Below, piece after piece: positions 26,428 through 52,994 of a stretch of 62,146 nucleotides of DNA. The translations under genes were made by a program, and so were the position numbers. The DNA is from a virus. Below the pieces are notes generated by a model. It worked only from the letters and a program-made list of their open reading frames with translations, did not search any database and was not told the DNA's origin. The DNA lies in the IMG/VR virus record IMGVR_UViG_3300033183_000484, positions 1-62,146 of that record, one strand, 5' to 3'. Each line of letters begins with the position of its first letter. The first letter of the stretch is position 1.

Positions 26428-26431
26428 CGGG

Positions 26432-31864: not shown

Positions 31865-33256
31865 CTAGAGCGACCCGCAACCCACCCGTGCCGCTAATTG
31901 ATCGAAAAATGTTGCGATAGCATCGATTTCAGCCCTATTCATATCACCCTTATTCCGAAGTTCTTCGATATCGAGCCGTGCCTTCGAAAAGGTTGTCCAT
32001 TGAGTCGCTGAAACATCAGAAGACTTCCATTTTGCTCGCAAATAATTTTCGAAAAGCGCCGCCTCCTCTATTGTCAGAAGTTCAGGGCTGTAAAACGCTA
32101 CCAACCGCCTACCGAGTTGACGCAGTCGAGCATCTGAAAGACTTGAGACGATTTCTTGGCGGCGTAACCAGGTTGCATGCTGAAACTCCTGCAAGAGTAT
32201 TTTGTCAGAGTTGGAGTAGAATTCCCCATAAATCTGTTGCTCAACCTTCTTTGGCGTAGCCTTGGTATCTTCGACGAAGCGTGCAGCCATTGCCGCGCCT
32301 ACACGCTGACGAAACTCAGGCGCGTTGGCAATAATCTCTGCCCGGCGCAAATGCTCTGAACTGGGCTCTCTGTGTTCTAGGAGAGCGGGCGCTTTGTTCG
32401 TGGGCACGCCTCGGATGATTTTCGGCGTGGCATCCACTGCGGCGAAGATCGCCTCATCCGAGGCCTCGAGGAACTCCGATGGGTCAGCAGCATCCAGATC
32501 AAAAAACGCCGCTTGTGCGATGTTGCCGTGGGAGTACCCGCAGAAACACCCCACGTAGGATCGCGGCTCACCGCCGCCAAAGCGCGTAAGTAGCTCGTAA
32601 GGCCGAAAGCTTTCAAGCTTTGCCTGCACACGCGCCTTATGGGCGCTGTCAATCAATTCAGACCACAGCGCTGGGCTACGTGTTGCGATCAGACGTGCGA
32701 TGTGAATGGTCGCCTCGACATCCCCCAGCGCATCATGCGCGTTGTGGGCATTGAAGCCATTTGCAGGCGCTAGCCGGTCAAGCTTGAAACTCCGCCGTCC
32801 AGTGTCCTCGGTGGGCCAAACAAGCAGATCAGGCTGCCGGACATAGGACGCATAGACTGCCGGCAGAATGTCGAAGCGCGTGTTTCCGTTGAACTGCGTG
32901 GCGTAAATGTTTGGCGACAGGTTCTGATAAAAGGTCTGCCGCAGCACCTCCTCGTCGAACTTCATCGTGTTGTAGCCCACCCAAATCGCCGGCGCCCATT
33001 TCTCGGTGAACTCGGCCACCTGCTGTGAGAACTCAAAAAGCGATGGCAGGCTTGCATCTGTCAGCTGATCAGGCGTGACGCGGGTAACAACCATCGCCTG
33101 CGGTGAAGGCAGAATATGAGGCGCCAACCGACAGCGAATGTTGATCCTATCTTTTTCCACGAAATGCTCATCCGTCCAGATTGCAGCAAACTGCAGCGGC
33201 TGATCGAACTCAGGAGAGATCCCAGTGGTTTCAAGATCGTAGAAGACAAAGTCCAT
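31865..33256 (-). CDS. sbcB: Exonuclease I (SbcB-type, DEDDh)
   Basis: This 463-residue protein has the DEDDh exonuclease motifs: VFYDLETTGIS, VGYNTMKFDEEVLRQ and HNAHDALGDVEAT. The C-terminal half matches the ExoI SH3-like and helical domains. ExoI degrades single-stranded DNA 3' to 5' and binds the tip of SSB. Length is near that of E. coli SbcB. The ssb-like gene is divergent from it 207 bases away, and both lie between two defence operons, so this may be an accessory copy. Confidence 0.9.
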   Translation of the reverse strand: MDFVFYDLETTGISPEFDQPLQFAAIWTDEHFVEKDRINIRCRLAPHILPSPQAMVVTRVTPDQLTDASLPSLFEFSQQVAEFTEKWAPAIWVGYNTMKFDEEVLRQTFYQNLSPNIYATQFNGNTRFDILPAVYASYVRQPDLLVWPTEDTGRRSFKLDRLAPANGFNAHNAHDALGDVEATIHIARLIATRSPALWSELIDSAHKARVQAKLESFRPYELLTRFGGGEPRSYVGCFCGYSHGNIAQAAFFDLDAADPSEFLEASDEAIFAAVDATPKIIRGVPTNKAPALLEHREPSSEHLRRAEIIANAPEFRQRVGAAMAARFVEDTKATPKKVEQQIYGEFYSNSDKILLQEFQHATWLRRQEIVSSLSDARLRQLGRRLVAFYSPELLTIEEAALFENYLRAKWKSSDVSATQWTTFSKARLDIEELRNKGDMNRAEIDAIATFFDQLAARVGCGSL

Positions 33257-33463: not shown

Positions 33464-33898
33464 ATGTCTGGAAGCGTAAATAAAGTGATATTGGTGGGCA
33501 ACCTCGGAGCGGACCCCGACATCCGCCCCCTAACAGGCGGACAATCTGTGGCTAACTTGCGCATCGCAACGAGCGAAAATTGGTCTGATAAGGTAACAGG
33601 AGAGCGTCGCGAACGTACGGAATGGCACAACGTCAGTGTATTTTCTCCCAACGCCGTGAATTACGCTCAATCATACCTGAAGAAAGGTTCTCCGGTATAC
33701 ATTGAGGGCCGTTTACAAACTCGCAAATGGCAAGATCCTTCAGGACAGGACCGGTACTCGACAGAAATAGTGGTAAATAACATTGGTGGGCAACTTATTG
33801 GCCTACCATCCAATCGGACCTCCCTCGAAACCGGACCGCTCCCCCAAACTACTCCCAATACACAACCCGGTTTTGACCCCGGCGACATCCCATTTTGA
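33464..33898 (+). CDS. ssb: Single-stranded DNA-binding protein
   Basis: This 144-residue protein has an OB-fold start [15 protein letters not shown] and the segment [23 protein letters not shown] typical of bacterial SSB. It ends in FDPGDIPF, an acidic tip of the kind that recruits ExoI and other repair enzymes. The linker is very short, as in phage or plasmid SSBs, so this is probably not the housekeeping copy. The ATG is at 33,464. Confidence 0.95.
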
Positions 33899-34079: not shown

Positions 34080-36458
34080 TCACATGTTGTAAAGGTCAAC
34101 TAGAAGATTTGGATTACTAGTTTCCCCCATCAACTCATCAGACAAATTTTCCAACAATTGTGAGTACTTATCCGCTTTTATTTTTTCTTTCCACCCCTTC
34201 CTCGCAAGCCTCTGCAAGTCTTTTCTGGTTCTTGTGATGGCAATGGCTAATTGCTCTGCAACTGGATCAAATCCAATCGTAAGAGCATGACGATCTTTAA
34301 GACGTGTTCTAATTAACCCACCTAGTAGGAATGGAGCATAATTGAACTTAGTATAATTCCCACCAATTTCTGCGGAAAACTCCTGTATGATCCGTTCTGC
34401 CAACCGCTCAATATCTCTCTGAGATAGGTTCAAAGGGGCAGTATCTGAGCGGGATAATAAGAATGCCATAGCCGCAGTCTCATTTCGCCAATTCCAAGTA
34501 GACAAATTAGAAGACATCAAGACTTTGATTGCTCGCTCTTCATCGTCAAGCTTCAAACAAGTCCGTCCTAGTCCTTGATAAAAGAGCACCCAACTTGCGG
34601 CATGTGAAACAACAGGATGCTGACCAGATGCATTCCTCTCGCTTATGACTTCGATCAGCTTTGACGCAACACCTTCAGGCGCCCTTCTAAACTGCCAAGT
34701 CAGAAACTTTAAGGTACCGTTACTTTCGGCTGATCTCCCATCAAGCCGCTTATAAGCATGCTCCCAAGCTCTAATGGTAAGTTCATCCAAACCATCGCGG
34801 CTCTGACCTGTGATTTCATTTGGGATCTCACCATCGCTTGAAACGCAATATGCACCTTCAAATCGGGAGCTTAATTGTTTCGTGAGCAATTCCCAATCTG
34901 GCTGATGACGCGATTTTTCCTGTGAGATCAGCTCTGTGAGGCCAGGAGTGCCATCCTGACCATCCCACAGTGATTTCGTACACGGCAATATCAATCTCTT
35001 AGGTATGGACGGGTTCCCTTGAGACAAATCGCTGATTAGCTCATCCCACGACTTATCCAGCTCTTCCGCACCTTCCCAATCCACCAAGAATTGCCGAGCT
35101 AACATTGGCGCATAAATAAATATCTTTGCTCGTCCTGCCGATGGAGCTTGCTCCACACTTAACTCCACCGGAAAGCGGTCTTGAACTTTATTCCCAAGTG
35201 AAACATTGGCCTTCCGTGCAGAAGGCATCATCTCTTTCTTAAGATATATGGAAATTTCACTTTGCCCGGGCTGAACTGCAAATTTAGCCGGTTCAGGAGA
35301 GCGGTAAATTCGACCTGCTTGCAAGATTTCATCTGGCCTAACTAGATCAAACGACTTAGCACCTTCATCACCAAGAACTATTGTCGAAATAGCTGGTAAA
35401 AAATCGAAGTACACAGGCTCTCCTTTTGCGTATCTTCGTGCAGCTTCTAGCGCCCCCCTTGCGATGATATCCTCATCTGCAACCGTCAACTTGGAACCAA
35501 AAATTTTAGCCAAGCGCTGCGCCAATGCTAATTTGATAGGTCCCGCAGAAAGCGTTTCAAATACAACACAGTCGCAATCTATCAGAGCACTTCCTAAATC
35601 ACTAAAATCGTCCCTCTTGAATTCTAATAATAATTTTTTTTCTTTAATGAAATTAAAATTACCTCGAGCATTTCTACTTAAGGCCTCAGAAGAAATACCA
35701 TTCAACGCCAACTCGTAAATAGCGCGGCGCAAAACTGTATCAACACCTTGGCTATGCTCAATATCACTGAGAAAATTTACTTTTGCATTCGAAATTAAAT
35801 TATCGTAGCCAAAACTTGTTTGAATTATCTTTGCAGCCTGCTGTCTTTCAGGCGCATAAATTTTGCCTGATTCAGTTTGGTACGACCTAATTTCGAGCTT
35901 CTGCACGGTTATGCCAGAACGGGCATGCGTTAACACACCTACAGTTTGTTTATCCACAAAGGTAAATTCTTTGTTTTGGTTTGTAAGAAGCCCCAATATT
36001 ACTAAAACTGATCGCCAAACTAAGAGTGATCGTCCTAATTTTTCTTTTGAAATAGCGGCTATAAGACGATCCTGGAGATCTTCAGTAAATGAGTGATCTT
36101 CATCCAAAGAGACCGCACAAAATTTAGCCCCAGAAGTATGCCCAGATAATGCAGCGCCAAGACATTCTCGCTCAGATGCTTCTTTGTGGAGCAACTCGAG
36201 CACAGGAATACGTCGTTCTACTGCTCCAACAACGCCCCATCCTCCTCCTCTTCCATGCGGTGCTAGTTGAGCTTGAGAGCCTCCAATCCACTTGCTTCGC
36301 CCACCTATTCCAACCCTTACCACATCCGGCGCGATAATAGATCCAGTAACCGATACATCACCGATCACTTCTTCTCCTTGAGCAGAATAATGCCAATTCT
36401 TCGCCGCACAATCTCTAATGCCATTTAAATCATAACCGCAAATCTTGGGTTTCTTCAT
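34080..36458 (-). CDS. Degenerate Hsp70-like (ASKHA) protein of the CoCoNuT operon
   Basis: This 792-residue protein has an Hsp70-like N-terminal half: GYDLNGI in place of the GIDLGTT phosphate-1 loop, and DEDIIARGALEAARRYAKGE (residues 328-347), which matches the helix following the Hsp70 adenosine motif (ARGAAIQA type). The phosphate-2 and adenosine loops are changed (SGITVQ, ETLSAGP), so ATP hydrolysis is doubtful. The C-terminal 400 residues are unlike the Hsp70 substrate domain. Hsp70 homologs thought to bind RNA are described in CoCoNuT systems. It is the last gene, joined to the McrC-like gene by TAATG. Confidence 0.65.
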   Translation of the reverse strand: MKKPKICGYDLNGIRDCAAKNWHYSAQGEEVIGDVSVTGSIIAPDVVRVGIGGRSKWIGGSQAQLAPHGRGGGWGVVGAVERRIPVLELLHKEASERECLGAALSGHTSGAKFCAVSLDEDHSFTEDLQDRLIAAISKEKLGRSLLVWRSVLVILGLLTNQNKEFTFVDKQTVGVLTHARSGITVQKLEIRSYQTESGKIYAPERQQAAKIIQTSFGYDNLISNAKVNFLSDIEHSQGVDTVLRRAIYELALNGISSEALSRNARGNFNFIKEKKLLLEFKRDDFSDLGSALIDCDCVVFETLSAGPIKLALAQRLAKIFGSKLTVADEDIIARGALEAARRYAKGEPVYFDFLPAISTIVLGDEGAKSFDLVRPDEILQAGRIYRSPEPAKFAVQPGQSEISIYLKKEMMPSARKANVSLGNKVQDRFPVELSVEQAPSAGRAKIFIYAPMLARQFLVDWEGAEELDKSWDELISDLSQGNPSIPKRLILPCTKSLWDGQDGTPGLTELISQEKSRHQPDWELLTKQLSSRFEGAYCVSSDGEIPNEITGQSRDGLDELTIRAWEHAYKRLDGRSAESNGTLKFLTWQFRRAPEGVASKLIEVISERNASGQHPVVSHAASWVLFYQGLGRTCLKLDDEERAIKVLMSSNLSTWNWRNETAAMAFLLSRSDTAPLNLSQRDIERLAERIIQEFSAEIGGNYTKFNYAPFLLGGLIRTRLKDRHALTIGFDPVAEQLAIAITRTRKDLQRLARKGWKEKIKADKYSQLLENLSDELMGETSNPNLLVDLYNM

Positions 36459-37954
36459 TACGCGCCCCAAATATTCTTGGATAAAAATTCAGCGATAGCC
36501 TTACGCCCAAAGCCGAGAGAGGCTCCTGCGCCGTCGAATGTGACCGCATCCACGAGCAAACCAGCTTTCTCGAGCACCTCATGACCGGGCTCGTGATGAC
36601 CTGGTGTCAAAATCAAGCCGTGCCTAATACGTTCAAAGGCATTTGGGATCTGTTGCAGACCAATCAGGCGTTCCAATGCTTCATTGCATGCTAAATTGGG
36701 ATCAATTTTGCTCAATGCATGAGGCGTCCACACTGCAACTCGGTGCGGGTAACCACTGTCGTCCATCGGGTTGGAAATCTTCAATGCAACGTGAGCACGA
36801 GAAGCAAACTGTAAAGTTCCAGGCTCTTCGGGTCGGGCCATTACTTCAACCACTCGGCCGATGTCTTTCAACCAAAAAACTGCTATTGGCCTCTCTTGGT
36901 CGAACCAAATTCCATTCACAGCCTCATTTCTAAATATGATCGGCGACTGTGCCATCAAATGAGCATCTGGCATCTCATGAATGGCTAAGACTAGACACAG
37001 GACGGCAAATTCTGTCCATGTTTCGGCCTGCCAAGCCCACAGTTCGTCTTTAGCTTTTTCTCGTTGCAGAAGCTTCTCCCAAGCCTCCCTAACCGCACGA
37101 TATCCCTTATCCTCCATCAGTACGTAATTGGGTGTGATATCTGCTAGTGCGACTCCAATCCCAAGGCCGCGCAAATCGGCGGCCATCCCTTTGCATAATT
37201 TATTATAACTCTCGACAGCTACGTACCTTTGGCTCCCCTGCGCTTTTGCATGTTCGCGCAACCATTCTTGGCATACATCCGACGCAAGTCTGCAATAGGC
37301 ATGCATTACGCGATTTTCCAAAGTGTCGAAATTTTCTTTTCGAATGACAGCCATAATACGCTGTTCACTTCCTGCACGTTCCGCAACTGTCGATCCAGGT
37401 TGACGGGATAACCAAACCATCGAACCACGATCCATTTCTTGCACTCGATCTAATGGTATTAACTCACGTTCGCGACGAAGGACTCTGCGAATACGTGATC
37501 TTAACTCCTTTAAAATAATAGCTAACTCTCGTGCTTGCTTAACAATCTCCGCCATTCGTGGTTCTTCTTCACGTTCAGCTGCATCCCAAGACAGTTTTAG
37601 ATTGGACCAAAGGTGACTTGGATCATCAAGTGCCTCCTCCAGTTCCTGAACGCGTGCTACAACTTCATTCATGCGCGCTAGCGCTCGCACAGCATCGTCC
37701 GGAGCTTCCAATTCTTTTCCGGTTTTTGGGCGAATTAGAAAGTTGTCGCGTAGCGGAGCGTCTTCTTGCGTTTTTTTCGGATACGGATGTTGGACAAGTA
37801 AGCGCTCAACTCCATTCACTTTGCTCCTCATAAGAACAGAGTGACGCCCGGGCTGTTCCCCAGCACTTACTTCGGAAATCAAACAATCGCGCACGGAAAA
37901 CGGCTCGCCTTCATCTAGCCCTTTTCCCAACCATGGCCGCGAAAGACGGATCAT
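36458..37954 (-). CDS. McrC-like DUF2357 protein of the CoCoNuT operon
   Basis: This 498-residue protein has a helical region at about 85-165 and the DUF2357 signature ENFDTLENRVMHAYCRLA (residues 207-224), comparable to the 'TPENR' motif of McrC-type proteins. McrC homologs bind the McrB-type ring and carry a PD-(D/E)xK nuclease; here I cannot point to a convincing D...(D/E)xK set in the C-terminal 200 residues, so the nuclease may be lost or very divergent. It overlaps the McrB-like gene by TAATG, the standard McrBC order. Confidence 0.65.
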   Translation of the reverse strand: MIRLSRPWLGKGLDEGEPFSVRDCLISEVSAGEQPGRHSVLMRSKVNGVERLLVQHPYPKKTQEDAPLRDNFLIRPKTGKELEAPDDAVRALARMNEVVARVQELEEALDDPSHLWSNLKLSWDAAEREEEPRMAEIVKQARELAIILKELRSRIRRVLRRERELIPLDRVQEMDRGSMVWLSRQPGSTVAERAGSEQRIMAVIRKENFDTLENRVMHAYCRLASDVCQEWLREHAKAQGSQRYVAVESYNKLCKGMAADLRGLGIGVALADITPNYVLMEDKGYRAVREAWEKLLQREKAKDELWAWQAETWTEFAVLCLVLAIHEMPDAHLMAQSPIIFRNEAVNGIWFDQERPIAVFWLKDIGRVVEVMARPEEPGTLQFASRAHVALKISNPMDDSGYPHRVAVWTPHALSKIDPNLACNEALERLIGLQQIPNAFERIRHGLILTPGHHEPGHEVLEKAGLLVDAVTFDGAGASLGFGRKAIAEFLSKNIWGA

Positions 37955-39924
37955 TAACGGATGACCCCTCTCCAGACAAATTGCCCGGTAGTTTCTGCGG
38001 CCTCAACAGACTGCTTTATTGCCTCAGCTAGCGGGTCATCTCCAAACTTGGTCGCTAGCTTTTCGAGTTTTTCAAATTCAGCGCTGCATTCTTCGACGTC
38101 AACACCACGCAATTTGGGAAGAAGTCGCATTTCTATTTGATCTGCCAATGCCAAGCCAATACGATCTCCTACCCCGTCGCCATCAGGGTAAACAGTTGCA
38201 TAAGCTTTGATTGCACGTCCAAGACGATGACCGAACGGCTTTCCAAAATTCTGCATGAGCCCCAACATTTCTTGGATAGCACCATCAACTCGGGTCAAAT
38301 CAGATCCAGTGAGCGGGAGATTACACCACGTGTCCCAAACGGCTCGGCTCAATGCACGAATAGGAACGGCTTCATTGGATTGTCGAACTTGAGCAATCGA
38401 ACGAGGCGCGCCAAAACGCATGACATTCGCACGGTCTACCACCTTGTCAGACAGCGACTGTGTGCTCTCATCTTCATTCATCGTACCTGCAAAAAGGAGA
38501 TTGTAGCCGGGGAAAATACGCGTGACTGCGTTAGGTATTTCAAGCTCGATCTCTGCATCCTTCCTGAGGTTAACGTCCCCGACCGCATCTCGTGCAGGTC
38601 TACTTTCAAGACGACTTAAGAAGTCTGAGAAATAGTACTCAACACGAGCAAGGTTCATCTCATCGAGAAGAACCATCATCATCCTATCTCTGAGGGCACC
38701 CTCTTCATTATTCTGCTCGTCCATTGCGTAAAGCGCGCGAGCCATATCCGTTGGCCGGAAACGCCCCTCAATGTAATTGTAGAACCCCATTAAATCCTGG
38801 GGACTATCCCACCTGGGTTGAACAGGCACTTGAAGAAAACCAATTCCCATACCCGCAGCATATTGACGAGGGAGTTGGCTCTTACCTGTACCCGAAATAC
38901 CCGCCAAAACCGTCATCTGCGTGGTGTCATTCACTTTCATCGAAGTATGGAAGGCTCGCAAGGTTCGTTCTGGGTACGATAAGCCAAAAGCGTCAAAACG
39001 CTTTTTGACGCTCTTTAGAGCATCGTCTTCATTTTCAGGCTGCGGCTTATCCCAAGAGAGCATATTAGCAATTACTTGAGGTTGCTCTTTGAGCTCACGC
39101 ATGGGGTCTTCGTTGCTTGACTTTCTCCCATCTGGCGATGGCAACAACTTTATTTGTTCTTCCAAATAAACCTTGCGTGCTTCCAATGAAGAAACTGTAG
39201 CATCAAGATCTAGCTGTGATTGTTTTTTTGCAGCGTAATCTGATGTCAAAGCATCCAAATCGACATGCACAGACTGGAGCTGTTCTCTAGACACTTGAAG
39301 CTCGTGATCCAGGCTTTCAACCCGAGATGATTTTTCAAAAATTAGACCGTCAATATTTGAATGTTCCCGCCGCAACTTATCGAGTTGTTTTTCAGCATCC
39401 TCAAGTTCAGCAGCTTTACTGTATAGTTCTGACACTTTCTGAGATAGATCTCTTTCTCTGCCCTCGAGTGAAGCTATCTGTCCAACCAACGTTTCAGCAC
39501 GCTCTAGGCGTTCTTTGACAACGTCATAATCAGCCGTCGCGTTTGCAAGTTGTGCTTCCAATTCAACTTTGGAAATTTGAGCTTTTTCAATTTCGTCTCG
39601 AACAGAATTAACTTCCTTTCGCCGCTCTGCGCTTTGTTCCCATTCTCGGAGAAGTTCGTCTCGTTGGCGAACTAACGCATCAACCTCAGCCTGAATTTCC
39701 GCGATATGTGCCAACGCCTTCCGACGAGCCTCAAGATCATTTTCAAGATCAAGTAACGTCGCTCGCTTTTCTTCAATACGAGCAGAAACAGCGCGCTCCT
39801 CCTCTAAAGGACCGGCTAAAGCAACTGCCTTATCGTGCCAAACTGCCTTAATGAGAGTCAGCAAAATGAGCGCGATGACCGCGACACATAGCGCGATAAA
39901 AATGTAAAGATTTGCATCAAGCAT
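37954..39924 (-). CDS. Membrane-anchored coiled-coil McrB-like AAA+ protein (CnuB-like)
   Basis: This 656-residue protein has a membrane helix at residues 5-27, a long coiled coil at about 40-260, and an McrB-family AAA+ domain. Walker A is GISGTGKS (342-349), Walker B is LLDEMNLARVEYY (419-431), and the sensor segment FAGTMNEDES (478-487) is the McrB-type MNxxD region. McrB-type motors use GTP or ATP to drive an McrC partner, encoded directly downstream. A coiled coil in place of the DNA-binding head is the hallmark of the CoCoNuT branch. Membrane anchoring suggests action at the inner membrane. Confidence 0.8.
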   Translation of the reverse strand: MLDANLYIFIALCVAVIALILLTLIKAVWHDKAVALAGPLEEERAVSARIEEKRATLLDLENDLEARRKALAHIAEIQAEVDALVRQRDELLREWEQSAERRKEVNSVRDEIEKAQISKVELEAQLANATADYDVVKERLERAETLVGQIASLEGRERDLSQKVSELYSKAAELEDAEKQLDKLRREHSNIDGLIFEKSSRVESLDHELQVSREQLQSVHVDLDALTSDYAAKKQSQLDLDATVSSLEARKVYLEEQIKLLPSPDGRKSSNEDPMRELKEQPQVIANMLSWDKPQPENEDDALKSVKKRFDAFGLSYPERTLRAFHTSMKVNDTTQMTVLAGISGTGKSQLPRQYAAGMGIGFLQVPVQPRWDSPQDLMGFYNYIEGRFRPTDMARALYAMDEQNNEEGALRDRMMMVLLDEMNLARVEYYFSDFLSRLESRPARDAVGDVNLRKDAEIELEIPNAVTRIFPGYNLLFAGTMNEDESTQSLSDKVVDRANVMRFGAPRSIAQVRQSNEAVPIRALSRAVWDTWCNLPLTGSDLTRVDGAIQEMLGLMQNFGKPFGHRLGRAIKAYATVYPDGDGVGDRIGLALADQIEMRLLPKLRGVDVEECSAEFEKLEKLATKFGDDPLAEAIKQSVEAAETTGQFVWRGVIR

Positions 39925-39935
39925 TTACCCGTCCT

Positions 39936-41411
39936 CTATTGGTTCGGCATCTGGGAAGCTGCATTAGAAATTGCATCCAATTGCATCCTGTAAACTTCGA
40001 CTTCCGATGCAAATTTGGCAGAGTTCTGACGCAGCTCATCCACAATGGGTGTCAATGCATCTCGCGTTGCCTCAAGTACCGTAATCTCAGCATCTATTTG
40101 ATTTTTCCGGTCTTCTAATGCTTGTATCTGCGCCCGAGCATCGTCTCTCTGGATAATAAATTGTCGGGCTTCAGAAACATCTGCCTGTAAATCTCTCAAG
40201 GTTTGATCGAGTGACGCTTGTTCCGCTCTCTTCACTGAAAGAACTTCCTCTGCCCGAGCAACTTCCTGACTTATAATATCAATGCGGGCCACCTGCTCTT
40301 CAACTAAGGCAACTCTTTCCTGATAATTGGCGATACGCGTTCTCAAATCATCAAGACTTTGCTGTTGAGTTGAAATTTGTCCATTTACAGACTCAAGCTC
40401 GATAATGAGTGCCGCACGATCAGAGAGTAACTGTTGCTTCTGCTGATTGAGCCCATCGACAGTGCCGTTAAGGTCAGCGATTTCCTCATCTAGTCCGTCG
40501 CGCTTGAGTAAATCGTCCGCCAAGAAGGCGACATCTGCTTTCAACATATCACGTTGATCGCTCAAATTCTGAAATTCTGTTGTGACATCAGCAATCTTTT
40601 GTTGAACGTCATCAAGTGCTTTCTCTTGAGCCAACACTGCAGTCTGATTTGCCTCTAGGTCACGCTTGGTAGTTTCTAAATCATTAATTGCAATGGTGAG
40701 AGCTCGTTGCGTTTCCGCCAGTGAATCGTTGGCTTCCGAGATATTTGTTTCCACCGACCTCAATTCTTCAGCCCTTAGCAACAAAGAATCTACATTTCTC
40801 TGCAATCTATTAAACTCATTGAGTAAAGCTGACTTATCGGTTTCTAGCTGTGCATTGGACTGCTGCAGCTCATCTCTCTCCCTTCTAAGCACAACTATTT
40901 GATCACCTAGAGCCGAGTGATTTGAAGTTAAATTTGCAATAGCGTCTTCGAGCAAGGCTTTATCTTGTTGCAGACTAACAATATTGTTTTGAACCTCTCT
41001 TTCTTGTTGCTGAAATTCACCTAGGGTGACGGCTGCAGATGAAGCCTGATCTAACGTTTTCTGGGCCTCCGGAATTCTTGGCAACAAACGATCCAAGTCT
41101 TCTCGGGCTGCGCGTATATCAGAATTTAGACCTTCCAGTTCAGCAGTGATCTGTATTTTTTGGGCTCTCAAATTGCTATTTTCCGATGTAGCTTGGGCGA
41201 TATCATTCAAGAGTTGCCCATGCTCTCCCAAAAGCCCTTCACGCTGGCTTTGATAATAATCAATATCACTTGCAATCATTCCATACTTCTGGCTCAAACC
41301 ATTGACTTGAATCCCCAAGTAAATCACCGCCCCTAACGAAACGGTTGCAAGGATCGCAGCCAGCGAAGTATGCGTTCGCGAGTTACGATAAGTCTTGTTC
41401 GATGATGTCAA
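39936..41411 (-). CDS. Membrane-anchored long coiled-coil protein
   Basis: This 491-residue protein starts at a TTG with GGAGG six bases upstream; no ATG lies before the membrane helix (residues 15-35), which supports the TTG. The remainder is almost entirely coiled coil, rich in Gln, Leu, Glu and Asp. It has no enzyme motif. Its N-terminal anchor and length parallel the McrB-like protein, so the two may pair along their coils. Large coiled-coil proteins of this kind accompany CoCoNuT loci. It overlaps the helicase gene by 29 bases. Confidence 0.7.
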   Translation of the reverse strand: MTSSNKTYRNSRTHTSLAAILATVSLGAVIYLGIQVNGLSQKYGMIASDIDYYQSQREGLLGEHGQLLNDIAQATSENSNLRAQKIQITAELEGLNSDIRAAREDLDRLLPRIPEAQKTLDQASSAAVTLGEFQQQEREVQNNIVSLQQDKALLEDAIANLTSNHSALGDQIVVLRRERDELQQSNAQLETDKSALLNEFNRLQRNVDSLLLRAEELRSVETNISEANDSLAETQRALTIAINDLETTKRDLEANQTAVLAQEKALDDVQQKIADVTTEFQNLSDQRDMLKADVAFLADDLLKRDGLDEEIADLNGTVDGLNQQKQQLLSDRAALIIELESVNGQISTQQQSLDDLRTRIANYQERVALVEEQVARIDIISQEVARAEEVLSVKRAEQASLDQTLRDLQADVSEARQFIIQRDDARAQIQALEDRKNQIDAEITVLEATRDALTPIVDELRQNSAKFASEVEVYRMQLDAISNAASQMPNQ

Positions 41412-44400
41412 GGCATGCCTCCATATTGTTGGCTAATTCATCAACCCAAAAACGGCGCACACGCCACCCCAAGGATTTTAATTGGTGATCGCGCCAATAA
41501 TCCGAAATCTTGCGCGATCCGTCTGTGTTCTGGTGCCAACGCCGACCGTCGACCTCGAGGTCAAGTTTGATTCCGTTTGCCCCAAAAAGCGCAAAATCTA
41601 GACGGCGGCCGGCTATTTCATACTGAGGCTCTGGTTTAAGACCACGCTCAATAAGTGCATAGTAGACTCTACGCTCCCAACCACTGTCAAATATGCCCTC
41701 ACCTGGACGCGTTGGTGGTTCAGTGGCAGCAGCAGCAAGAGATGCCAATGAGCGTAATTTACCCGATCTGGCAAAAGATAAATCACCAAATATATGAGCC
41801 ACAGCTCGAGCACGCGAAATTGCAACATTCAATCGGCGGGTGTCCTTTTGAACGAACGCTATAGCCGATGAGCGGCTCGCTCCACCAAGCGTAGGCGAAA
41901 ACAGAATGACGTCACGCTCTTGTCCCTGAAAACCATCTACGGTAGCGACCCGGAATTCAGCACCCTCAAGTTTTTGGTCGGGGATACGCGCCCTAACAGC
42001 ACGTTCAATAGCCGCAACTTGCCCTCTAAAGGGGGAAACAACGCCAATAGTACCTTCATAAGCTTCTGCAATGAGCAGTTTTTCAAGGTGAGTTACAATT
42101 GCTTCAATTTCCGAGTCATTGGTATTATTTTGGCCCTGAACTAAAGGAGCAGGAACATCTGTCCATGCAAGCCCTGGCTTTTGAGACGCTGGCGCTCGAA
42201 TTGTTTTTGGATCGTACGCAGTTTTTAGTTCACCGCCGTAAAAGTTTGAGCTGATATAATCAACGATAGGCCCAACCGAACGATATTGCTGTTTCAGCAA
42301 GATTTTTTCAGCACCGTTTGTTCGTCGAGCAAAATCAAATAAAGCCTGTTTGCTTTGAGCATACCTACTCATTTTTTGTACGGGGAGACCCTGTGCCTGC
42401 ATCAAATTTCGATCCTGAGCCTGACCGATTTGAGCAATAAAATTGAGTTGTCGATTATCCCCGACAACGACCGCACGCCGGGCGCGCGCCAACAAAGGAA
42501 GGGCAGATCCAATATCACATTGACTTGCTTCATCGAAAATCACCAAATCAAAAAGTCCTGGCTCCAATGGAATACGTTTTGGAGTACCTAAGATTGAAGC
42601 TAACCAAAGAGGCCTATGCTGCACGACGGATTGCGCCAAGCCCGAGGGCACATGGCCACTAGCACCTGAGAAATCAAAGTCAGCCTTCTGGTGTTCTATA
42701 ATATCCAATTCTTCCAATGTCACAGAGGTCCTATCTTTCAATATGATAGGCAAAACTCTTCGGGTTGTTTCTGCAAGAACTTGAGTTTGAGACACGACGT
42801 CGGGAGGTGTGCCCAACTTGTCGCGGTCTGACCGCAGTCTTGCCAAACGTTTGTCCAATGTCTCCGATACTTTTAGCGGAACAAATCTGCCACCCACTCC
42901 AAAACTCATTATCTTCGACAGAAACCTAATTAACCTTTCAATCAGGCTCGGTTGATATTGTTCAGTTTCCGAATGCTTCGCGAGAGTGTTATCCAGTTGA
43001 GCCTGTGCCTCGAGTTGCTCAATGACGTCTGCAATTTCACACTCTAATCGGGTCCGCTCTGAAATATTCAGAAGAGCACTCTTCCGCTCAGACGCAAGCT
43101 GCATGAGCGCATTAACAGTTTGACTTTCAAGATAATTACCTTGTTCGGCAGGTAGGGTAACCAGCTCATCAAGTACCTTGCCAAAAGACACGTCAAGATT
43201 TCGCGACGGATCCAAAGTTCGAACGAGAAACGGCAAATCTTCTGCTATTGATCCCAAACGGTCTTGCACCGCGTCAAGTGCTTGGTGGTTTTTTGAAGCT
43301 ACCAAAACGGAGCCACCAGCGGCGAGAACTGATGCAGCCATAGATACGATTGCTTGAGACTTTCCCGTACCAGGTGGACCCGTCACAACAGTCAAATGCT
43401 CTATTGCGGCCTTTTGAACAGCTTCTATTTGTTCAGCATTGAGCGGCCCGACATTTAACGGGTAAACATCTGAAGGGGGGATCTTACTTTCAAGGCCTAA
43501 GAATGGAGCAAGCGCCGTTCTTTGCAATTGCTCTGTTTTCCAAGTCGCAATGGTATCAAGATCTTTAATCGAACCCGCTGTAAAACTGCTTTCATCAGGT
43601 AGGAACAAACCCGCCATGTTAAAAATGCCAGTTTGATCAAGCGCTAACGTACGACCCAGGTCCTTCGATTGAAGATCATCTCTGATAAGAGTCGCTGCGG
43701 CCTCAGACAAACGGAACCTAAATTCGTCCTTTTCAAGACCTATTCCGGCATCCCCTTCAAAAACAGCCGCCAAGGCATCCCGACGCCATACCGTAACGTT
43801 TGAAGCACCTCTTACCCAATGTGGATTTACTAAAATATCGTTAGATTCAACAGATATATGAAGTTCACCAGCTACACGCTCCCAAGTCGCCGCAATTAAG
43901 CCGACAGGCCATACAACCGGCACGCCAGACTTCCGACCAACACATATCGGCCAGCCAATCGCGAGAGCGTTTTCATTGGCTTCACGTTGTAGTAAGGCCG
44001 TACGAAAATTAGGGGCAAGACTATCCAACTGTATGCGGATTTTTTGAATACCACTATCTGTTGGCAAGAACTTATTGGGACCACTGATCAAGTGCCAAGC
44101 ACGTCCATACCTATCAACATTTTCTTCAAGAGCCCCCCTCGGGTCTGATCGAAGTGCCGACCGATAATATCGCAGCAGAGCTGACGGATCCAATGCGGCA
44201 TGATCATCTGTATCGATAAACTCAATTTCTTCGGCTTGTACCGTCTGGAGAACAAATGGCGCGGCATACAAGTGTTCCGCTGTCATTTCTGAATTTGAAG
44301 AGCTCTCCTTGGACACTCCATTAACGGATGCCGCTAAAGATTTATTGATAGGAACCCACTTTCCTGATGACAGACGCCTTACTTGCCCCGCCTTCACGAG

Positions 44401-44526
44401 ATCTTCAAGCTCAGCAACCATGGCCATTCTTTCGTTCGCGTCGAACGAACAACCAATGAGAGCCTGAAGCTCCTGCAATGTTCGCCCTCTAGGAAACGAA
44501 CGAATTGTGTTCATTAAGAGAGACAT
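41383..44526 (-). CDS. SF1 (UPF1/DNA2-like) helicase with C-terminal Vsr/DUF559-like nuclease (CnuH-like)
   Basis: This is a 1,047-residue protein. Residues 1-60 look like a winged helix. The SF1 core has Walker A GPPGTGKS (383-390), DEAS (665-668), QQYRSVGPI, VDGFQGQERDVI and NVAISRARA. The last 110 residues form a PD-(D/E)xK fold nuclease of the DUF559/Vsr type: FDSGWERRVYYAL, RLDFALF and LEVDGRRWH, then SLGWRVRRFWVDEL. UPF1-like helicases are reported in CoCoNuT systems and are suggested to act on RNA. It is the first gene of the operon. Confidence 0.8.
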   Translation of the reverse strand: MSLLMNTIRSFPRGRTLQELQALIGCSFDANERMAMVAELEDLVKAGQVRRLSSGKWVPINKSLAASVNGVSKESSSNSEMTAEHLYAAPFVLQTVQAEEIEFIDTDDHAALDPSALLRYYRSALRSDPRGALEENVDRYGRAWHLISGPNKFLPTDSGIQKIRIQLDSLAPNFRTALLQREANENALAIGWPICVGRKSGVPVVWPVGLIAATWERVAGELHISVESNDILVNPHWVRGASNVTVWRRDALAAVFEGDAGIGLEKDEFRFRLSEAAATLIRDDLQSKDLGRTLALDQTGIFNMAGLFLPDESSFTAGSIKDLDTIATWKTEQLQRTALAPFLGLESKIPPSDVYPLNVGPLNAEQIEAVQKAAIEHLTVVTGPPGTGKSQAIVSMAASVLAAGGSVLVASKNHQALDAVQDRLGSIAEDLPFLVRTLDPSRNLDVSFGKVLDELVTLPAEQGNYLESQTVNALMQLASERKSALLNISERTRLECEIADVIEQLEAQAQLDNTLAKHSETEQYQPSLIERLIRFLSKIMSFGVGGRFVPLKVSETLDKRLARLRSDRDKLGTPPDVVSQTQVLAETTRRVLPIILKDRTSVTLEELDIIEHQKADFDFSGASGHVPSGLAQSVVQHRPLWLASILGTPKRIPLEPGLFDLVIFDEASQCDIGSALPLLARARRAVVVGDNRQLNFIAQIGQAQDRNLMQAQGLPVQKMSRYAQSKQALFDFARRTNGAEKILLKQQYRSVGPIVDYISSNFYGGELKTAYDPKTIRAPASQKPGLAWTDVPAPLVQGQNNTNDSEIEAIVTHLEKLLIAEAYEGTIGVVSPFRGQVAAIERAVRARIPDQKLEGAEFRVATVDGFQGQERDVILFSPTLGGASRSSAIAFVQKDTRRLNVAISRARAVAHIFGDLSFARSGKLRSLASLAAAATEPPTRPGEGIFDSGWERRVYYALIERGLKPEPQYEIAGRRLDFALFGANGIKLDLEVDGRRWHQNTDGSRKISDYWRDHQLKSLGWRVRRFWVDELANNMEACLDIIEQDLS

Positions 44527-44990
44527 GAACCTTACGGAATCTAAAATTGTCTAAGAGCATTTCACCCCTCAACAGAACCCGATGAAGCGAGCAGCGTCCA
44601 TAAGAAAAAGTCTAACTCTGACACTTTTTCAACCAACAAGTAAAATAGTACAGTACTGCCCTGCAATTACGCTTCGTGGTGTACAGAAATCCCAGTGTCA
44701 CTATCATGGCCAAATCTCGATAGAACTTTGGAGCCTCCAACGATTTAAAAAATGCTTTGATTGTAATCGGAAACGTTCCCACAGATCAGTGAGAACCCAA
44801 GAGTAGCAATCGATTTAATGAAAAACACCAAGAATACTGCCACATATGATTGGAGACAGCTGATTATCAATGATTACGGCTTTTCTGGGGGGGGGACGGC
44901 TCACCAAACGTTGACATGGCGTTGACATGAAACGCAGCAATAATTCCCCAGTATTTTACTCGGAAACTAAGTTTTTGATTTATTTAGGTA
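44527..44990. other. Gene-free stretch upstream of the CoCoNuT operon
   Basis: No convincing gene is present. The stretch should hold the promoter of the minus-strand operon. It also contains a run of nine G residues (44,887-44,895) and two copies of CGTTGACATG (44,909-44,918 and 44,920-44,929) at an 11-bp period, about 75 bases outside the left attachment site. A 74-codon plus-strand frame at 44,582-44,806 has no supporting features. Confidence 0.5.
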
Positions 44991-45038
44991 TTTTGGTTGC
45001 GGGGGTAGGATTTGAACCTACGACCTTCAGGTTATGAG
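44991..45038 (-). repeat. Left attachment site: 3' half of an initiator tRNA gene
   Basis: The stretch matches the 3' half of the tRNA at 61,979-62,055, from the anticodon loop to the CCA. The last 18 bases (45,021-45,038) are identical in both copies. The T-arm differs by a compensated base pair. This is the remnant left by integration into the tRNA, with the intact gene restored at the right end. Confidence 0.9.
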
Positions 45039-45179
45039 GCGCTCCAGTGCGGGCACAATACCTTCGCAATATCAGTGGCTTAGACAGATTTTCACGACGC
45101 AACGTCATTCACGTGTCGCACGGAAACGCCGTAAGCCGTTGGGAAAAAACGGGAATCCGGTCACGGGATTCACCAGCGC

Positions 45180-45473
45180 CTAAGGTCGCAGTTCATTGCA
45201 GCGCTGCCGGGCGTAGGCCCAGGCCGAGAATGGTGGGGTGTCGGGCCCGGGGGATGGCCCCTTGATCCACGGGTCTTCACCGAACGACGTGTATTGATCG
45301 TAGAGTTCGTCGGCGGTTTTGGCGGGATTGTCCTGCAGAAATTCATCCACGATCTTCTGGCAAGCGGCCACGGCCGCGTCGAGGCTGTCGAAGGTTCCGA
45401 GGCAATACCGCTCGTCTTCGTCCATGTAATGGAAGTTGTCATCGACGTAGACAGTCCAGTCGCCCCCTGCCAT
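45180..45473 (-). CDS. Small conserved-looking protein next to integrase
   Basis: The ATG at 45,473 with GGAGGAGG upstream gives 97 acidic residues starting MAGGDWTVYVDDNFHYMDE. It contains an AAVAACQKIVDEFL helix and a Pro-rich stretch near its end. No known motif. It lies between the left attachment site and the integrase on the same strand, a common place for accessory genes of integrated elements. Confidence 0.6.
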   Translation of the reverse strand: MAGGDWTVYVDDNFHYMDEDERYCLGTFDSLDAAVAACQKIVDEFLQDNPAKTADELYDQYTSFGEDPWIKGPSPGPDTPPFSAWAYARQRCNELRP

Positions 45474-45553
45474 CGCCTCCTCCAAACAGTGCAACCCAAT
45501 GCCTCGACTGTATTGTGCCGCGTCATGGCGATCAAGGCCGCGACGGGCCCCTG

Positions 45554-46657
45554 TCACCCCAGCAGCTTCGCCTCGACCTCGGCCATAGCGTTCTGGTGGT
45601 CTGGCGATGGGAACAGGTGGCCGTAACGCTCCATGGTCATCTGTATCGAGGAATGGCCCGCGAAGGTCATGACCTCCTTGATCGAGAAGCCCTGCTCGAT
45701 CCACAGCGACACCGCGAAGTGGCGCAGGTCGTGCCAGCGGACCTTCACATCGGCGCCTGCGCAGAGCTTGCGGAACCTCGCCTGCGTGTTGGTGTGTTGC
45801 AGAATGCCACCGCGCGGGGCCGGGAACACCAACGCCAGTTCACTCTTGGGGCAACGCAGTTTCCAGCGGCGCAGCGCGTTCAGCACCATCGGCCCTGCCG
45901 GAATGTCACGATAGCCTGCCCGTGATTTCGGCTCGCCCATCTGGTTATATGCGTCAGCGCGCTGCCGCACGTAGATGAACCCTTTCTCGAAATCCACATC
46001 CTGCCAGCGGAGCCCACGCATCTCCGAGGCGCGCAGGCCGGTCAGCGCAGAGACGATCAGGTGGGGTTTGAAATCTTCGTCGGCCGCCTCGATCAGCGCG
46101 CGGATCGTCTCCTTCGACGGCACGGGCGCCTTGTAGTCGATGCGGCTGGACTTAATCACCCGCACGCCCTGCGCGGCATTGGTGAACAACTGGCCGTTGT
46201 CGATGGCATGGTCGAGGAGCAGCTTCAGCGTGGACAGCGCACGGCGGGTCAGGTGTTCAGATCGGCCGTTGATGAGCATCCGGTCGCGCCATTCGTTCAC
46301 ATGGCGCCGGGTCAGCTGAGTGATCAGCTTATCGCCGATTCCGATGTCGGGGGCGGTGATATGCAGGCGCACATAGTCGCTGTAGCCGCGCAGGGTGGAC
46401 CGCTCCATCCGCCGCCCTGTCTTACAGCGCACTTCGCAATGGTCGAGCCACGCCTTTGCCGCGTCCGCCACGGTGACGCTTTCGCTATCCGCGAGATAGG
46501 TGTTGTTGGCGACGAGCGAACGAACCTTCACGAGGTAGACGTCAGCATCCTTGCGGCGCGGGAACAGCTTGGACCGGCGTTTGCCCGCCTGGTCGGTAAA
46601 ATCCACCTGCCAGCGGACTAGGCCCGAGGGCAGCGTGCGTTTGCGAATTGTGGCCAT
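45554..46657 (-). CDS. Tyrosine-type site-specific integrase
   Basis: This 367-residue protein has the N-terminal core-binding region and the catalytic domain with LTGLRASEMRGLRW (Arg), HDLRHFAVSLW (HxxR), GHSSIQMTMERYGHL (His and Tyr nucleophile). It should recombine the tRNA attachment sites to insert and excise the element. It is the only recombinase seen and is close to the left repeat, as expected. The ATG is at 46,657; the plus-strand genes of the element start divergently 130 bases away. Confidence 0.95.
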   Translation of the reverse strand: MATIRKRTLPSGLVRWQVDFTDQAGKRRSKLFPRRKDADVYLVKVRSLVANNTYLADSESVTVADAAKAWLDHCEVRCKTGRRMERSTLRGYSDYVRLHITAPDIGIGDKLITQLTRRHVNEWRDRMLINGRSEHLTRRALSTLKLLLDHAIDNGQLFTNAAQGVRVIKSSRIDYKAPVPSKETIRALIEAADEDFKPHLIVSALTGLRASEMRGLRWQDVDFEKGFIYVRQRADAYNQMGEPKSRAGYRDIPAGPMVLNALRRWKLRCPKSELALVFPAPRGGILQHTNTQARFRKLCAGADVKVRWHDLRHFAVSLWIEQGFSIKEVMTFAGHSSIQMTMERYGHLFPSPDHQNAMAEVEAKLLG

Positions 46658-46790
46658 GTTTTCCCTCCGGCGCGCAAGAAACAGGAACAGTTGTCAAACT
46701 CTGTTAATTGGTGATATGAACCGTATCAATAGCACTTGCAATGTATTGTTGCGCGTGTAAACCCATAGTTTATGAACGGAGCCCCAAACA

Positions 46791-47570
46791 ATGACAGCCA
46801 ACGAACGGAACGGTGCGCAAGCCCCCGAACCGCTTCTCTATGGCGATGCGGAAGCAGCGGAAGCGTCAGGAATGCCGGTGCCGAGTTTGCGCGTCCTGAG
46901 CACAGCCGGAGCCCTGCAGGCACAGAAAACCCCCAAGGAGCATGGCGGCTTCAAACGCATGTGGCGCGAGGAAGATGTGCTGATTGCCTCAATTGGGGCC
47001 GCGATGAGCGAACACTTCGCCTGGAACATCAGAATCGTGGCCGAGGCGATGGCCAAGACACGGCCGGGGACATGGAGCGCTCTGACAGCGTCAATTGCTG
47101 GCACCATCTCTGCAGAGGCGGACACGTTTATACGAAGGGAAAAAGAGGACTGGTATCTCGATCTGATCGACAGAAAGTTCCTGTTCCTGCGGGTTCCTCC
47201 CATCGCCACCGCAATCTTTCCGGATACGGCCCTCGGGAAAACAGACCTGATCTTGGGATGGGCGACCTCGAAAGACACCTTCCAAATGTTGCCATGGCTG
47301 CTCGGCCACCCTGAAGGAAAAGAGACGCTTCGGAGCGTGTTCACGGCGAAGCAAATTCAAAGCCTCGCGCAATACTACAAATTTTCCATGGTGGCGCACA
47401 GAAACGCGCTGAGTACCGCCAGCATCAATATCAGCATGCAGGTCCGCGCCGCCTGGCGCCGTCTCCACGGACTTGAAACCCACTTCCTCCAAGAAATCCT
47501 GCCCCAGAAAGGAACCCCCAATGACCCAGAACCCCGGCCCCATTCAAGCGACCGAAAAGACAGCGACTGA
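46791..47570 (+). CDS. MerR-like HTH-containing satellite regulator candidate
   Basis: This 259-residue protein has a MerR-like helix-turn-helix near its start (YGDAEAAEASGMPVPSLRVL followed by a basic GGFKRMWREEDV segment). The rest is helical without recognised domains. It is the first gene of the plus-strand block and divergent from the integrase, the position of control genes in satellites and phages. A master regulator or repressor role is plausible but not shown. Confidence 0.5.
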   Translation: MTANERNGAQAPEPLLYGDAEAAEASGMPVPSLRVLSTAGALQAQKTPKEHGGFKRMWREEDVLIASIGAAMSEHFAWNIRIVAEAMAKTRPGTWSALTASIAGTISAEADTFIRREKEDWYLDLIDRKFLFLRVPPIATAIFPDTALGKTDLILGWATSKDTFQMLPWLLGHPEGKETLRSVFTAKQIQSLAQYYKFSMVAHRNALSTASINISMQVRAAWRRLHGLETHFLQEILPQKGTPNDPEPRPHSSDRKDSD

Positions 47571-47784
47571 GGCGCCACTTTCCGAAGACCTACTTCGCGG
47601 CGCCGAAGAAATCGCGATCTTCATGTTTGGCGACGTGAAACACCGCCGTAAGGTTTACTACCTCACCGGCGAAGCGCCGCGCGGGCTACCGCACTTCAAA
47701 ATGGGCTCTGTGATCTGTGCGCGCAAAAGCACGATCCGAAACTGGATCAAGGAACAGGAGGGGCGTTTCAAGACGGTGGCATAA
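47521..47784 (+). CDS. Small HTH / AlpA-like DNA-binding protein
   Basis: The ATG at 47,521 lies inside the 3' end of the previous gene in another frame and gives 87 residues. The segment PHFKMGSVICARKSTIRNWIKEQE is the recognition-helix end of an AlpA- or excisionase-like winged helix. Such proteins activate integrase or excise satellite elements. The gene overlaps by 50 bases, which supports coupled expression. Confidence 0.6.
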   Translation: MTQNPGPIQATEKTATEAPLSEDLLRGAEEIAIFMFGDVKHRRKVYYLTGEAPRGLPHFKMGSVICARKSTIRNWIKEQEGRFKTVA

Positions 47785-47865
47785 GGCCACTCCCGAAAGA
47801 GTTCTGCAGCCCGCGATGCATGCGCGGGCTGCTATTTCCCCAGATGCACAGAGAACGCTTTCAGA

Positions 47866-50307
47866 ATGACGCTTCAAGACAATCCCCTAGATTTCAACAG
47901 CAAGCCGCCCCGCGCCAAGGGCAAAAATGGCGCCCGCATGCCCATCGCAAAACTGGCCGAATTGCTGAACGACCGCGTTGCCGACTTGGCACAGGAACTG
48001 ATGGGGCCACCCAACCGCGAACTTTCCAGTCAGCAACAACTGCGCTTTGGCACCAAAGGCAGCCTGGCCGTCGAGATTGCCGGCAAAGACAAGGGGCGCT
48101 GGTATGACCATGAAGCAAGCACCGGCGGCGCTGGGCTGGAGTTGATCCAGCACTGCCTCGGAATTGAAGGTAAATCCGCATGGGATTGGGCGCGAAATTG
48201 GCTGGGCGAGATGCCCAACTCCGCGCTGTCACGCCCCCCCGCCACGCCCAAAGCGGCCCCTGCAAGCACATCCCCTGCCCCGACAACGGAAGAGCGCAGC
48301 GAGAAATTCGCTCAAATCTTGCGGCGTTGCGAAAGCCTCGCCTCCACCCCCGTGCTGCCCTATCTGCGCCGACGCGGCATCACCGCCACCCCGCCGGACT
48401 GCATCAAATATCGGCAATATGCGTATGGCAAGTTTGGCGCCATGGTCGCGCTTGCAACCGATGAGGCTGGCGACGTTCTGGCTCTGCAGCAGGTATACCT
48501 CACCGCCCAAGGCGAAAAGGCGCCGCTCGAGGTCAAGAAACGCACAAACAAGGCAGTTGATGGGTGGGGCGAGCGCTCCGCAGTCCGCCTCCCGGGTAAC
48601 GAACCCTTGGTCCTCTGCGAAGGCGTCGAAACCGCCCTCTCAGTCTGGCAAGCAACAGGACAGGAAACATGGGCCTGCCTCGGGGTCTCAAACTTTGGCA
48701 ACGCCCCGGTACCCGCAAACTCTACGGTCATCATTGCACGCGACGGCGATGCCCCAGGCAGCAAAGCCGAGCGCCAAATCAATCGCGCAGCCCGCAGCCT
48801 CGGCACACGTGGCCGCAACGTCTTGATCGCGATGCCACCCGAGGGGCAGGACTTCAACGATGTGCTTGTGCAAGAAGGGGATGCGGCGGTTCGCAATTAC
48901 ATCGCCAACGCCGAGCCAGCGGCCTTCACATCGGTTGACGACCGCCGCAAGGACTTGTTCGTCGGCTCCGACATCGAGATTGCAAAACGCGTGCGCGAGG
49001 ACCTCACCGAACGCCATGGACGGATCGTCTATGCCGAGGGTGCGTTCTGGCATTATGACGAAACGGAATGGAAACCCATCCCGGATCACACGATCAGGCT
49101 GCCCGTCCATGTTTACGATGGCGCGACATTCATGACCGCGTCGGGTGAGCCATCAAACGTCAAGCTGAACAAGTCACGGGTGGACTCCGTGCTCAATGAA
49201 TGTGCCGCGCTTTGCGCAGATCCCGAGTTCTTCCAAAACCCGCCTGCAGGTATCAACTGCGCCTCAGGCTTTATCCGCTTCGACGATGCAGGCAGTCCCC
49301 AACTCGAGCGCCATCACCGCAGTCACCGGTGCCGCCACACTCTACCAGGTCAATGGAAAGCTGACGCATCCGGCACACCGCCCGAGGGCTCACTTCTCCA
49401 CCGCCTCTTGTCTGGCAGTTTCAAAGGTGATCGGGATGCACAGGCGAAATGTGATCTGCTGGCCGAGGTTTGCGGCTCGGCCGCGTTGGGATATGCCACG
49501 CGCCTTCTGCAGCCTCGCGCGGTCATTCTCCACGGCAAGACCGCTGAAAACGGCAAGAGCCAGATCCTAGAGCTGGCGCGCGGCCTGCTGCCCGAGAGCG
49601 CGAAATGCTCGCTCACCGCCTCAAGCATGTCGGACGAGCGGCATATCATCGGCCTTGTGGGCAAACTCCTGAATGCCTCCGATGAATTGTCACCCGAAGC
49701 CATCGCCTCGGACACCTTCAAATCCGTGGTGACCGGCGAACCCGTTCACGGGCGCGATGTCTACAAGAGCAGGGTGGAGTTCCGCTCGGTCGCGCAGAAC
49801 CTCTTTGCCGCCAACCAGCTACCCGGCTTCAGCGGCGGTGTGGATCGTGGAGTGCAGCGCCGCCTTTTGGTGATCCCCTTCACGCGAACAATCCCCCTCG
49901 AGGAGAGGATTGCCGACATCGGAAAGCGGATCGCCCTAGAGGAAGCAGACCTGCTCCTCGCTTGGGCTGTCGAAGGCGCTTCCCGATTGATCCGCCAACG
50001 CAATTTCAATACCCCGAAGACTTGCCAAGATGCGCTTCTCGACTGGCTGCTGAGTGAAGACCCCGTGTTGGATTGGATCAATACCAGCGTGCGCACCGCA
50101 CCCATCGTCAATGGCGAGCCGAGGCTTGCAACACGCGACGCCTACCTGCGGTTTACCAACTGGGCGCAGGCCGAAGGCTACAAGTCGGACAAGATCCCCG
50201 CGATCAACGGCTTCGTCCAACGCGTTCAGGCGCAAGTTCCGGGGCTTCAGCACAAGCGTACGAGTGCTGGGCGGTTCTTTGTCGGCATGACAGTGACGCA
50301 GTGGTGA
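47866..50307 (+). CDS. Primase-helicase (Toprim plus SF3 helicase) for satellite replication
   Basis: This is an 813-residue protein. The N-terminal part has the YDHE-type primase motif (GRWYDHEASTGGAG). The Toprim domain carries LVLCEGVETALS and IIARDGD. The C-terminal SF3 helicase has Walker A HGKTAENGKSQ and the segments LLNASDEL and NLFAANQLPG. Enzymes with this layout start replication of P4-like and PICI elements by unwinding an adjacent origin. An iteron origin begins inside its last codons, which fits that role. Confidence 0.9.
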   Translation: MTLQDNPLDFNSKPPRAKGKNGARMPIAKLAELLNDRVADLAQELMGPPNRELSSQQQLRFGTKGSLAVEIAGKDKGRWYDHEASTGGAGLELIQHCLGIEGKSAWDWARNWLGEMPNSALSRPPATPKAAPASTSPAPTTEERSEKFAQILRRCESLASTPVLPYLRRRGITATPPDCIKYRQYAYGKFGAMVALATDEAGDVLALQQVYLTAQGEKAPLEVKKRTNKAVDGWGERSAVRLPGNEPLVLCEGVETALSVWQATGQETWACLGVSNFGNAPVPANSTVIIARDGDAPGSKAERQINRAARSLGTRGRNVLIAMPPEGQDFNDVLVQEGDAAVRNYIANAEPAAFTSVDDRRKDLFVGSDIEIAKRVREDLTERHGRIVYAEGAFWHYDETEWKPIPDHTIRLPVHVYDGATFMTASGEPSNVKLNKSRVDSVLNECAALCADPEFFQNPPAGINCASGFIRFDDAGSPQLERHHRSHRCRHTLPGQWKADASGTPPEGSLLHRLLSGSFKGDRDAQAKCDLLAEVCGSAALGYATRLLQPRAVILHGKTAENGKSQILELARGLLPESAKCSLTASSMSDERHIIGLVGKLLNASDELSPEAIASDTFKSVVTGEPVHGRDVYKSRVEFRSVAQNLFAANQLPGFSGGVDRGVQRRLLVIPFTRTIPLEERIADIGKRIALEEADLLLAWAVEGASRLIRQRNFNTPKTCQDALLDWLLSEDPVLDWINTSVRTAPIVNGEPRLATRDAYLRFTNWAQAEGYKSDKIPAINGFVQRVQAQVPGLQHKRTSAGRFFVGMTVTQW

Positions 50308-52935: not shown

Positions 52936-52967
52936 CAGCGGATTGACCCACAGTAAAATTGTGATCA

Positions 52968-52979: not shown

Positions 52980-52994
52980 AATACGGAGGGCCGG

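Follow-up and report, generated by a model that had tools for sequence, protein, structure and literature searches.

A probable Type III-B CoCoNuT defence operon with N-terminal membrane helices in two coiled-coil proteins

In the 62,146 nucleotides of the IMG/VR record analysed here, hereafter the window, we found a complete operon of five genes on the minus strand, all of them intact and without internal stops (Table 1). The genes cnuH and cnuA overlap by 29 bp, the cnuB/cnuC and cnuC/cnuD junctions are both TAATG overlaps, and cnuA is separated from cnuB by 11 bp. A preliminary description of this DNA had the overlaps right, but gave the gap as 12 bp. The start of cnuA is a TTG codon (41409-41411), as in 35 of the 35 close relatives in which the start motif was found, and the overlap with cnuH may be its cause. 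For cnuD, the start is probably the ATG at 36458 and not the listed TTG at 36470, because the ATG lies inside the TAATG overlap and is aligned with the starts of the homologues. The GC content of the operon is 46.6%, against 56% in its surroundings, and scans for promoters and terminators returned only chance-level matches. Such an arrangement is not accidental, since Rhizobiaceae keep the gene order with proteins about 50% identical, and dozens of Rhodobacterales have it as well.

Table 1. Position of the operon and of the neighbouring features in the window
Feature	Position	Strand	Description	Length
Five-gene operon	34080..44526	minus	five intact ORFs	
cnuH	41383..44526	minus	UPF1-like SF1 helicase and C-terminal Vsr/MTES_1575-type PD-(D/E)xK nuclease	1047 aa
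cnuA	39936..41411	minus	separate coiled-coil protein, N-terminal hydrophobic helix, TTG start	491 aa
cnuB	37954..39924	minus	N-terminal hydrophobic helix, coiled coil, McrB-type AAA+ with NxD (NEDE)	656 aa
cnuC	36458..37954	minus	McrC-like, N-terminal beta strands, DUF2357, degenerate PD-(D/E)xK-like region	498 aa
cnuD	34080..36458	minus	Hsp70-like, C-terminal helical region	792 aa, counted from ATG 36458
Tail genes	331..13454		other phage or prophage	
ORF near tail genes	9208..9546		short tandem NHK repeat	
BREX	14798..27672		brxA, brxB, brxC, pglX, pglZ, brxL, WYL	
brxL	14798..16912		C-terminal phospholipase-D-like domain (MIT_C, PF16565)	
brxC	22906..26427		one in-frame stop	
SbcB-like exonuclease gene	31865..33256			
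SSB gene	33464..33898		divergent	
Satellite-like element	44990..62023		integrase, primase, terminase, portal, capsid	~17 kb
Near-copy of tRNA-Met 3' end	44990..45038		att copy	49 bp
Near-copy of tRNA-Met 3' end	61975..62023		att copy	49 bp
Terminase-portal interval	53187..57380		Type III restriction system	

CnuH matched the Pfam families AAA_11, AAA_12 and MTES_1575, and its sequence matches among proteins of known structure were SEN1, SMUBP-2 and UPF1. All 52 homologues keep the Walker residues of the helicase core, whose A and B motifs lie about 276 residues apart, as well as D977, E991, D993 and H998 of the nuclease; the Vsr likeness of this nuclease is assigned from its family (MTES_1575) and not from its fold. 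At the N-terminus of CnuH, where a wHTH is expected in Type III-B, the only Pfam match was to EutK_C (residues 5-54), under the cut-off of that family (E = 7.7e-4).

Sequence searches of the PDB returned chance matches only for CnuC and coiled-coil matches only for CnuB, so that a fold search was needed. CnuC has a Pfam match to DUF2357 under the curated cut-off (E = 2.8e-4). Its AlphaFold model, built with 54 sequences (pLDDT 91.3), has strands at the N-terminus, and its best PDB folds in Foldseek were those of McrC (6hz4_M and 6ut7_G, with 6ut6 also matched), with E-values of 8.9e-7 and 4.8e-5 for the McrC of E. coli and Thermococcus, respectively. TM-scores were low (0.2-0.3), and the likeness of the predicted structure to McrC is a match at the domain level. 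CnuC lacks the (D/E)xK lysine, the window having E370-V-M and the relatives mostly E-V-Q. CnuD has no Pfam match, and the best PDB folds for its AlphaFold model (52 sequences, pLDDT 89.8) were DnaK/Hsp70s (Foldseek E = 4.3e-13, probability 1.00). The models thus agree with the McrC-like and Hsp70-like identities first proposed from the sequence.

Heptad periodicity was 8.8 standard deviations above shuffled sequences in CnuA (z 8.8), for which Pfam and PADLOC gave coiled-coil matches only, and 6.7 standard deviations above them over 244 residues of CnuB (z 6.7). CnuB also has a match to AAA_5 under the Pfam cut-off, and its AAA+ motif AGTMNEDEST, that is, NxD followed by E, is found in the window and in nearly all relatives. 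The PADLOC match of CnuB, PDC-M26A, was dropped: it is named in no paper that we found, and no partner protein was matched.

The gene set, the NxD motif and the McrC and Hsp70 folds support the CoCoNuT identity claimed in the preliminary description, and the architecture now narrows the subtype, which had been left unfixed, to Type III-B of Bell et al. (2024). In the main text of that work (eLife, PMC11090510), Type III-B is mainly alphaproteobacterial and lacks TerY-P; its CnuH carries a Vsr-like nuclease as a fusion, CnuA and the Hsp70-like CnuD are proteins of their own, and CnuC is made up of a beta-sandwich, DUF2357 and an inactivated PD-(D/E)xK. CnuH is defined there with an N-terminal wHTH, an OB-fold and a helical insertion. 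We assign the operon to this type because it combines an NxD CnuB, a UPF1-like helicase fused to a nuclease, a separate CnuA, a McrC-like CnuC without the catalytic lysine and a separate Hsp70-like CnuD, with no TerY-P/HEPN gene and within the published alphaproteobacterial distribution of III-B. Among the scanned genes of the island, there was neither a TerY-P module nor a HEPN effector. Type III-A was ruled out by architecture. In the literature, we found no experimental test of Type III-B.

A profile scan of GTDB genomes, from which 79 loci were kept, revealed 61 non-redundant loci with at least CnuA-B-C-D. Most of them are from Rhodobacterales and Rhizobiales, and the deeper ones come from Gammaproteobacteria, Desulfobacterota and Planctomycetota. 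The operon is also present on three plasmids of Rhizobiaceae, where CnuB, CnuC and CnuH are about 50% and CnuD 40% identical to those of the window, cnuH being split by insertions in one of the plasmids; no near-identical copy of the operon was found on plasmids. No relatives were found in viral contigs, which were searched with both CnuC and CnuB, or in phage genomes, for which CnuC was the query.

The AAA+ tree was built from the five-gene loci found in this analysis and from Type III-C, Type III-A and non-CoCoNuT sequences. In this tree, the window groups with Marivivens as its sister (100/97) within an alphaproteobacterial clade of five-gene loci, and the cyanobacterial Type III-C sequences form a separate clade (100/100). 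Long branches make the positions of Type III-A and of the non-CoCoNuT sequences unsure. Two outcomes had been named beforehand as contrary to a CoCoNuT, an AAA+ domain outside the McrB/CnuB clades and homologous operons mainly in non-defence contexts. Instead, the domain groups with the five-gene loci, and many restriction genes flank the related loci, their 116 flank proteins including several Type I specificity and restriction subunits, GmrSD and Type III restriction proteins.

A BREX system is indeed present in the window, as the preliminary description stated, but its adjacency to the CoCoNuT is loose (5.5 kb) and not conserved: near other CoCoNuT loci, BREX was found only once, in Phaeobacter (L037), and in opposite orientation. 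A single in-frame stop cuts brxC short, far ahead of where the gene normally ends, and the piece downstream of the stop continues to match the C-terminus of BrxC. Judging from its sequence, the BREX of the window is probably damaged, and it may be inactive because of this stop. An SbcB-like exonuclease gene, the adjoining SSB gene and three small genes lie between BREX and the CoCoNuT. The best PADLOC match of the exonuclease was RTasSbcB (E = 7.9e-162), an exonuclease associated with defence reverse transcriptases; no reverse transcriptase to go with it was identified.

The CoCoNuT begins about 460 bp outside an element inserted in a tRNA-Met gene, which is bracketed by near-copies of the 3' end of the tRNA gene and in which no tail genes were found. 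This is a satellite-like element, separate from the CoCoNuT. Its integrase is present at 80-95% identity on about 50 IMG/VR contigs, and one relative (L173, 2910-19506) has both att copies, about 16.5 kb apart. The terminase-portal interval of this satellite family is a hotspot for cargo: the window has a Type III restriction system there, and dozens of relatives (L090-L223) have different methyltransferases and restriction genes. The tail genes at the other end of the window, from which the CoCoNuT is separated by BREX, belong to another phage or prophage. The window is therefore not one phage, and the IMG/VR virus call merges the satellite with a neighbouring island. A circularly permuted temperate phage carrying the CoCoNuT as defence cargo, at first suggested by the gene order and by the IMG/VR virus label, was rejected as stated, because the att duplication sets the satellite apart and the operon lies outside it.

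Both coiled-coil proteins begin with a hydrophobic helix, with a Kyte-Doolittle mean over 19 residues of 2.1 in CnuA (residues 16-34) and of 3.1 in CnuB (residues 7-25). Counting as an anchor any 19-residue stretch with a mean hydropathy of at least 1.5 within the first 110 residues, we found one in 57 of the 61 CnuA proteins (37/40 close and 20/21 distant) and also in 57 of the 61 CnuB proteins (38/40 and 19/21). At least some of the close loci without an anchor have genes truncated at a contig end or split in two. By the same measure at a stricter cut-off of 1.8, there was no such stretch for CnuC or CnuD and one case for CnuH. The helix is also present in six of seven Type III-C CnuB proteins and in none of four from Type III-A. 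The membrane anchors noted earlier are thus real features of the two proteins, but they do not distinguish this locus, being shared across the clade. In the main text of the eLife paper, of its preprint and of a later preprint on YprA, we found no mention of such helices for III-B. The subtype was already classified. The anchoring of two of its subunits, conserved across phyla, appears not to be discussed in these main texts; it narrows the site of action, with the cell envelope as the likely place, and suggests how Type III-B CoCoNuTs may sense infection.

The topology of the two proteins was predicted from hydropathy and the positive-inside rule. In 37 of 38 close and 19 of 19 distant cases, K/R residues are more numerous behind the CnuB helix than ahead of it, which places the ATPase in the cytosol, as expected. 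In CnuA, positive charge is higher before the helix in 37 of 37 close and 15 of 20 distant cases; a periplasmic coil is therefore predicted, with a mixed signal in the distant homologues. The two proteins would thus have opposite orientations, the ATPase of CnuB facing the cytosol and the coil of CnuA the periplasm. Given the overlap, the charge of the first cnuA codons may in part reflect the coding of CnuH. There is no cysteine in 19,515 residues of CnuA from close homologues, compared with nine in 10,363 residues of the CnuB coil. This is only suggestive of a periplasmic coil, given the relatedness of the sequences and the general scarcity of cysteine in coiled coils.

A continuous CnuA coil of about 450 residues would measure near 65 nm, which exceeds the width of the periplasm, so that a periplasmic CnuA would have to fold back. 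The cytosol accommodates very long coils more easily, and in the model published in the main text of PMC11090510 the CnuA coils pair with cytosolic coils of CnuB and CnuH. Together with the mixed charge signal of the distant CnuA proteins, this favours a membrane-bound Type III-B with both coils in the cytosol, the C-terminus of CnuA lying inside and the anchors merely concentrating the complex, with no periplasmic sensing. The charge asymmetry seen in 37 of 37 close CnuA cases and the complete lack of cysteine argue against such an arrangement, to which we give only just less than an even chance.

We are confident that the five genes represent a Type III-B CoCoNuT, an McrBC-derived putative defence system at the inner membrane, which would most likely act as follows. 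The computation shows the gene set, the domain folds, the conserved catalytic motifs and the conserved hydrophobic helices of the two proteins; the complex, its topology, its target, envelope sensing and an anti-phage activity are inferred. The N-terminal helix of CnuB would tether this protein to the inner membrane and leave the coiled coil and the AAA+ ring on the cytosolic side, and CnuC, by homology to McrBC, would dock on this ring as a McrC-like activator. The Hsp70-like CnuD would be the likely recognition subunit for the target, proposed to be RNA for the CoCoNuT family in the main text of PMC11090510. CnuH would translocate on the captured nucleic acid, RNA or DNA, and cut it with its fused Vsr/MTES_1575-type nuclease, the only one in the operon with intact catalytic residues. 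CnuA would be a second membrane protein of the putative complex; its coil, probably periplasmic, could report envelope disturbance at phage DNA entry.

More tentatively, and with a probability that we place somewhat below even, Type III-B and perhaps also Type III-C may be trans-envelope defence machines, in which the periplasmic CnuA coil reports phage attachment or DNA entry to the helicase-nuclease. If so, the nucleic acid would be met at the point of entry. The topology of CnuA bears on the choice between cytosolic RNA surveillance and envelope sensing, and the trans-envelope arrangement is a testable prediction.

The Hsp70-like and UPF1-like parts resemble RNA quality control, and a stress role is proposed in the main text of PMC11090510 for the Pseudo-Type I-B relatives, both of which would suit a membrane-linked quality-control or stress operon with no anti-phage role. 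We regard this as improbable, considering the deviating GC content of the operon, its relatives on plasmids, the restriction genes in the flanks and a patchy occurrence: with a Type III-A CnuB as the query, 6 of the 197 genomes searched from the order of Marivivens proved to have relatives. A CoCoPALM-type system instead of a CoCoNuT, that is, a GTPase joined to a transmembrane and coiled-coil region of the FtsB type, is very improbable: CnuB does have the same layout, in which a transmembrane helix is followed by a coiled coil and then by the NxD AAA+ domain, but the operon and its scanned neighbours contain no signal-peptidase or pilus gene, and the helicase-nuclease, the separate CnuA and the Hsp70-like CnuD are present in conserved order.

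Compared with known systems, the McrC fold of CnuC is shared with the canonical McrBC of E. coli K-12, which has no coiled coil, anchor or helicase and, according to the main text of PMC11090510, has an NxxD motif and an active McrC nuclease; the window has NxD instead, and its CnuC has lost the catalytic lysine. CoCoPALM resembles the operon in the membrane helix and coiled coil on an NxD GTPase, but it is tied to genes of the signal-peptidase family, and no helicase-nuclease or Hsp70-like gene is described for it. Type III-A CoCoNuTs have UPF1-like CnuH, CnuB, DUF2357 and Hsp70-like parts, and differ by the fusion of CnuC to CnuD, TerY-P, a separate CnuE and, in four CnuB proteins, the lack of the helix. 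The cyanobacterial Type III-C shares the NxD CnuB with its hydrophobic helix and, according to the main text of PMC11090510, a separate CnuD, while having a PLD-type effector and a clade of its own. With Type III-B of the same main text, the operon shares the gene set from the fused-nuclease CnuH to the separate CnuD, including the NxD motif of CnuB, the inactive nuclease of CnuC, the lack of TerY-P and the occurrence in Alphaproteobacteria, and it adds to that account the conserved N-terminal membrane helices of CnuA and CnuB.
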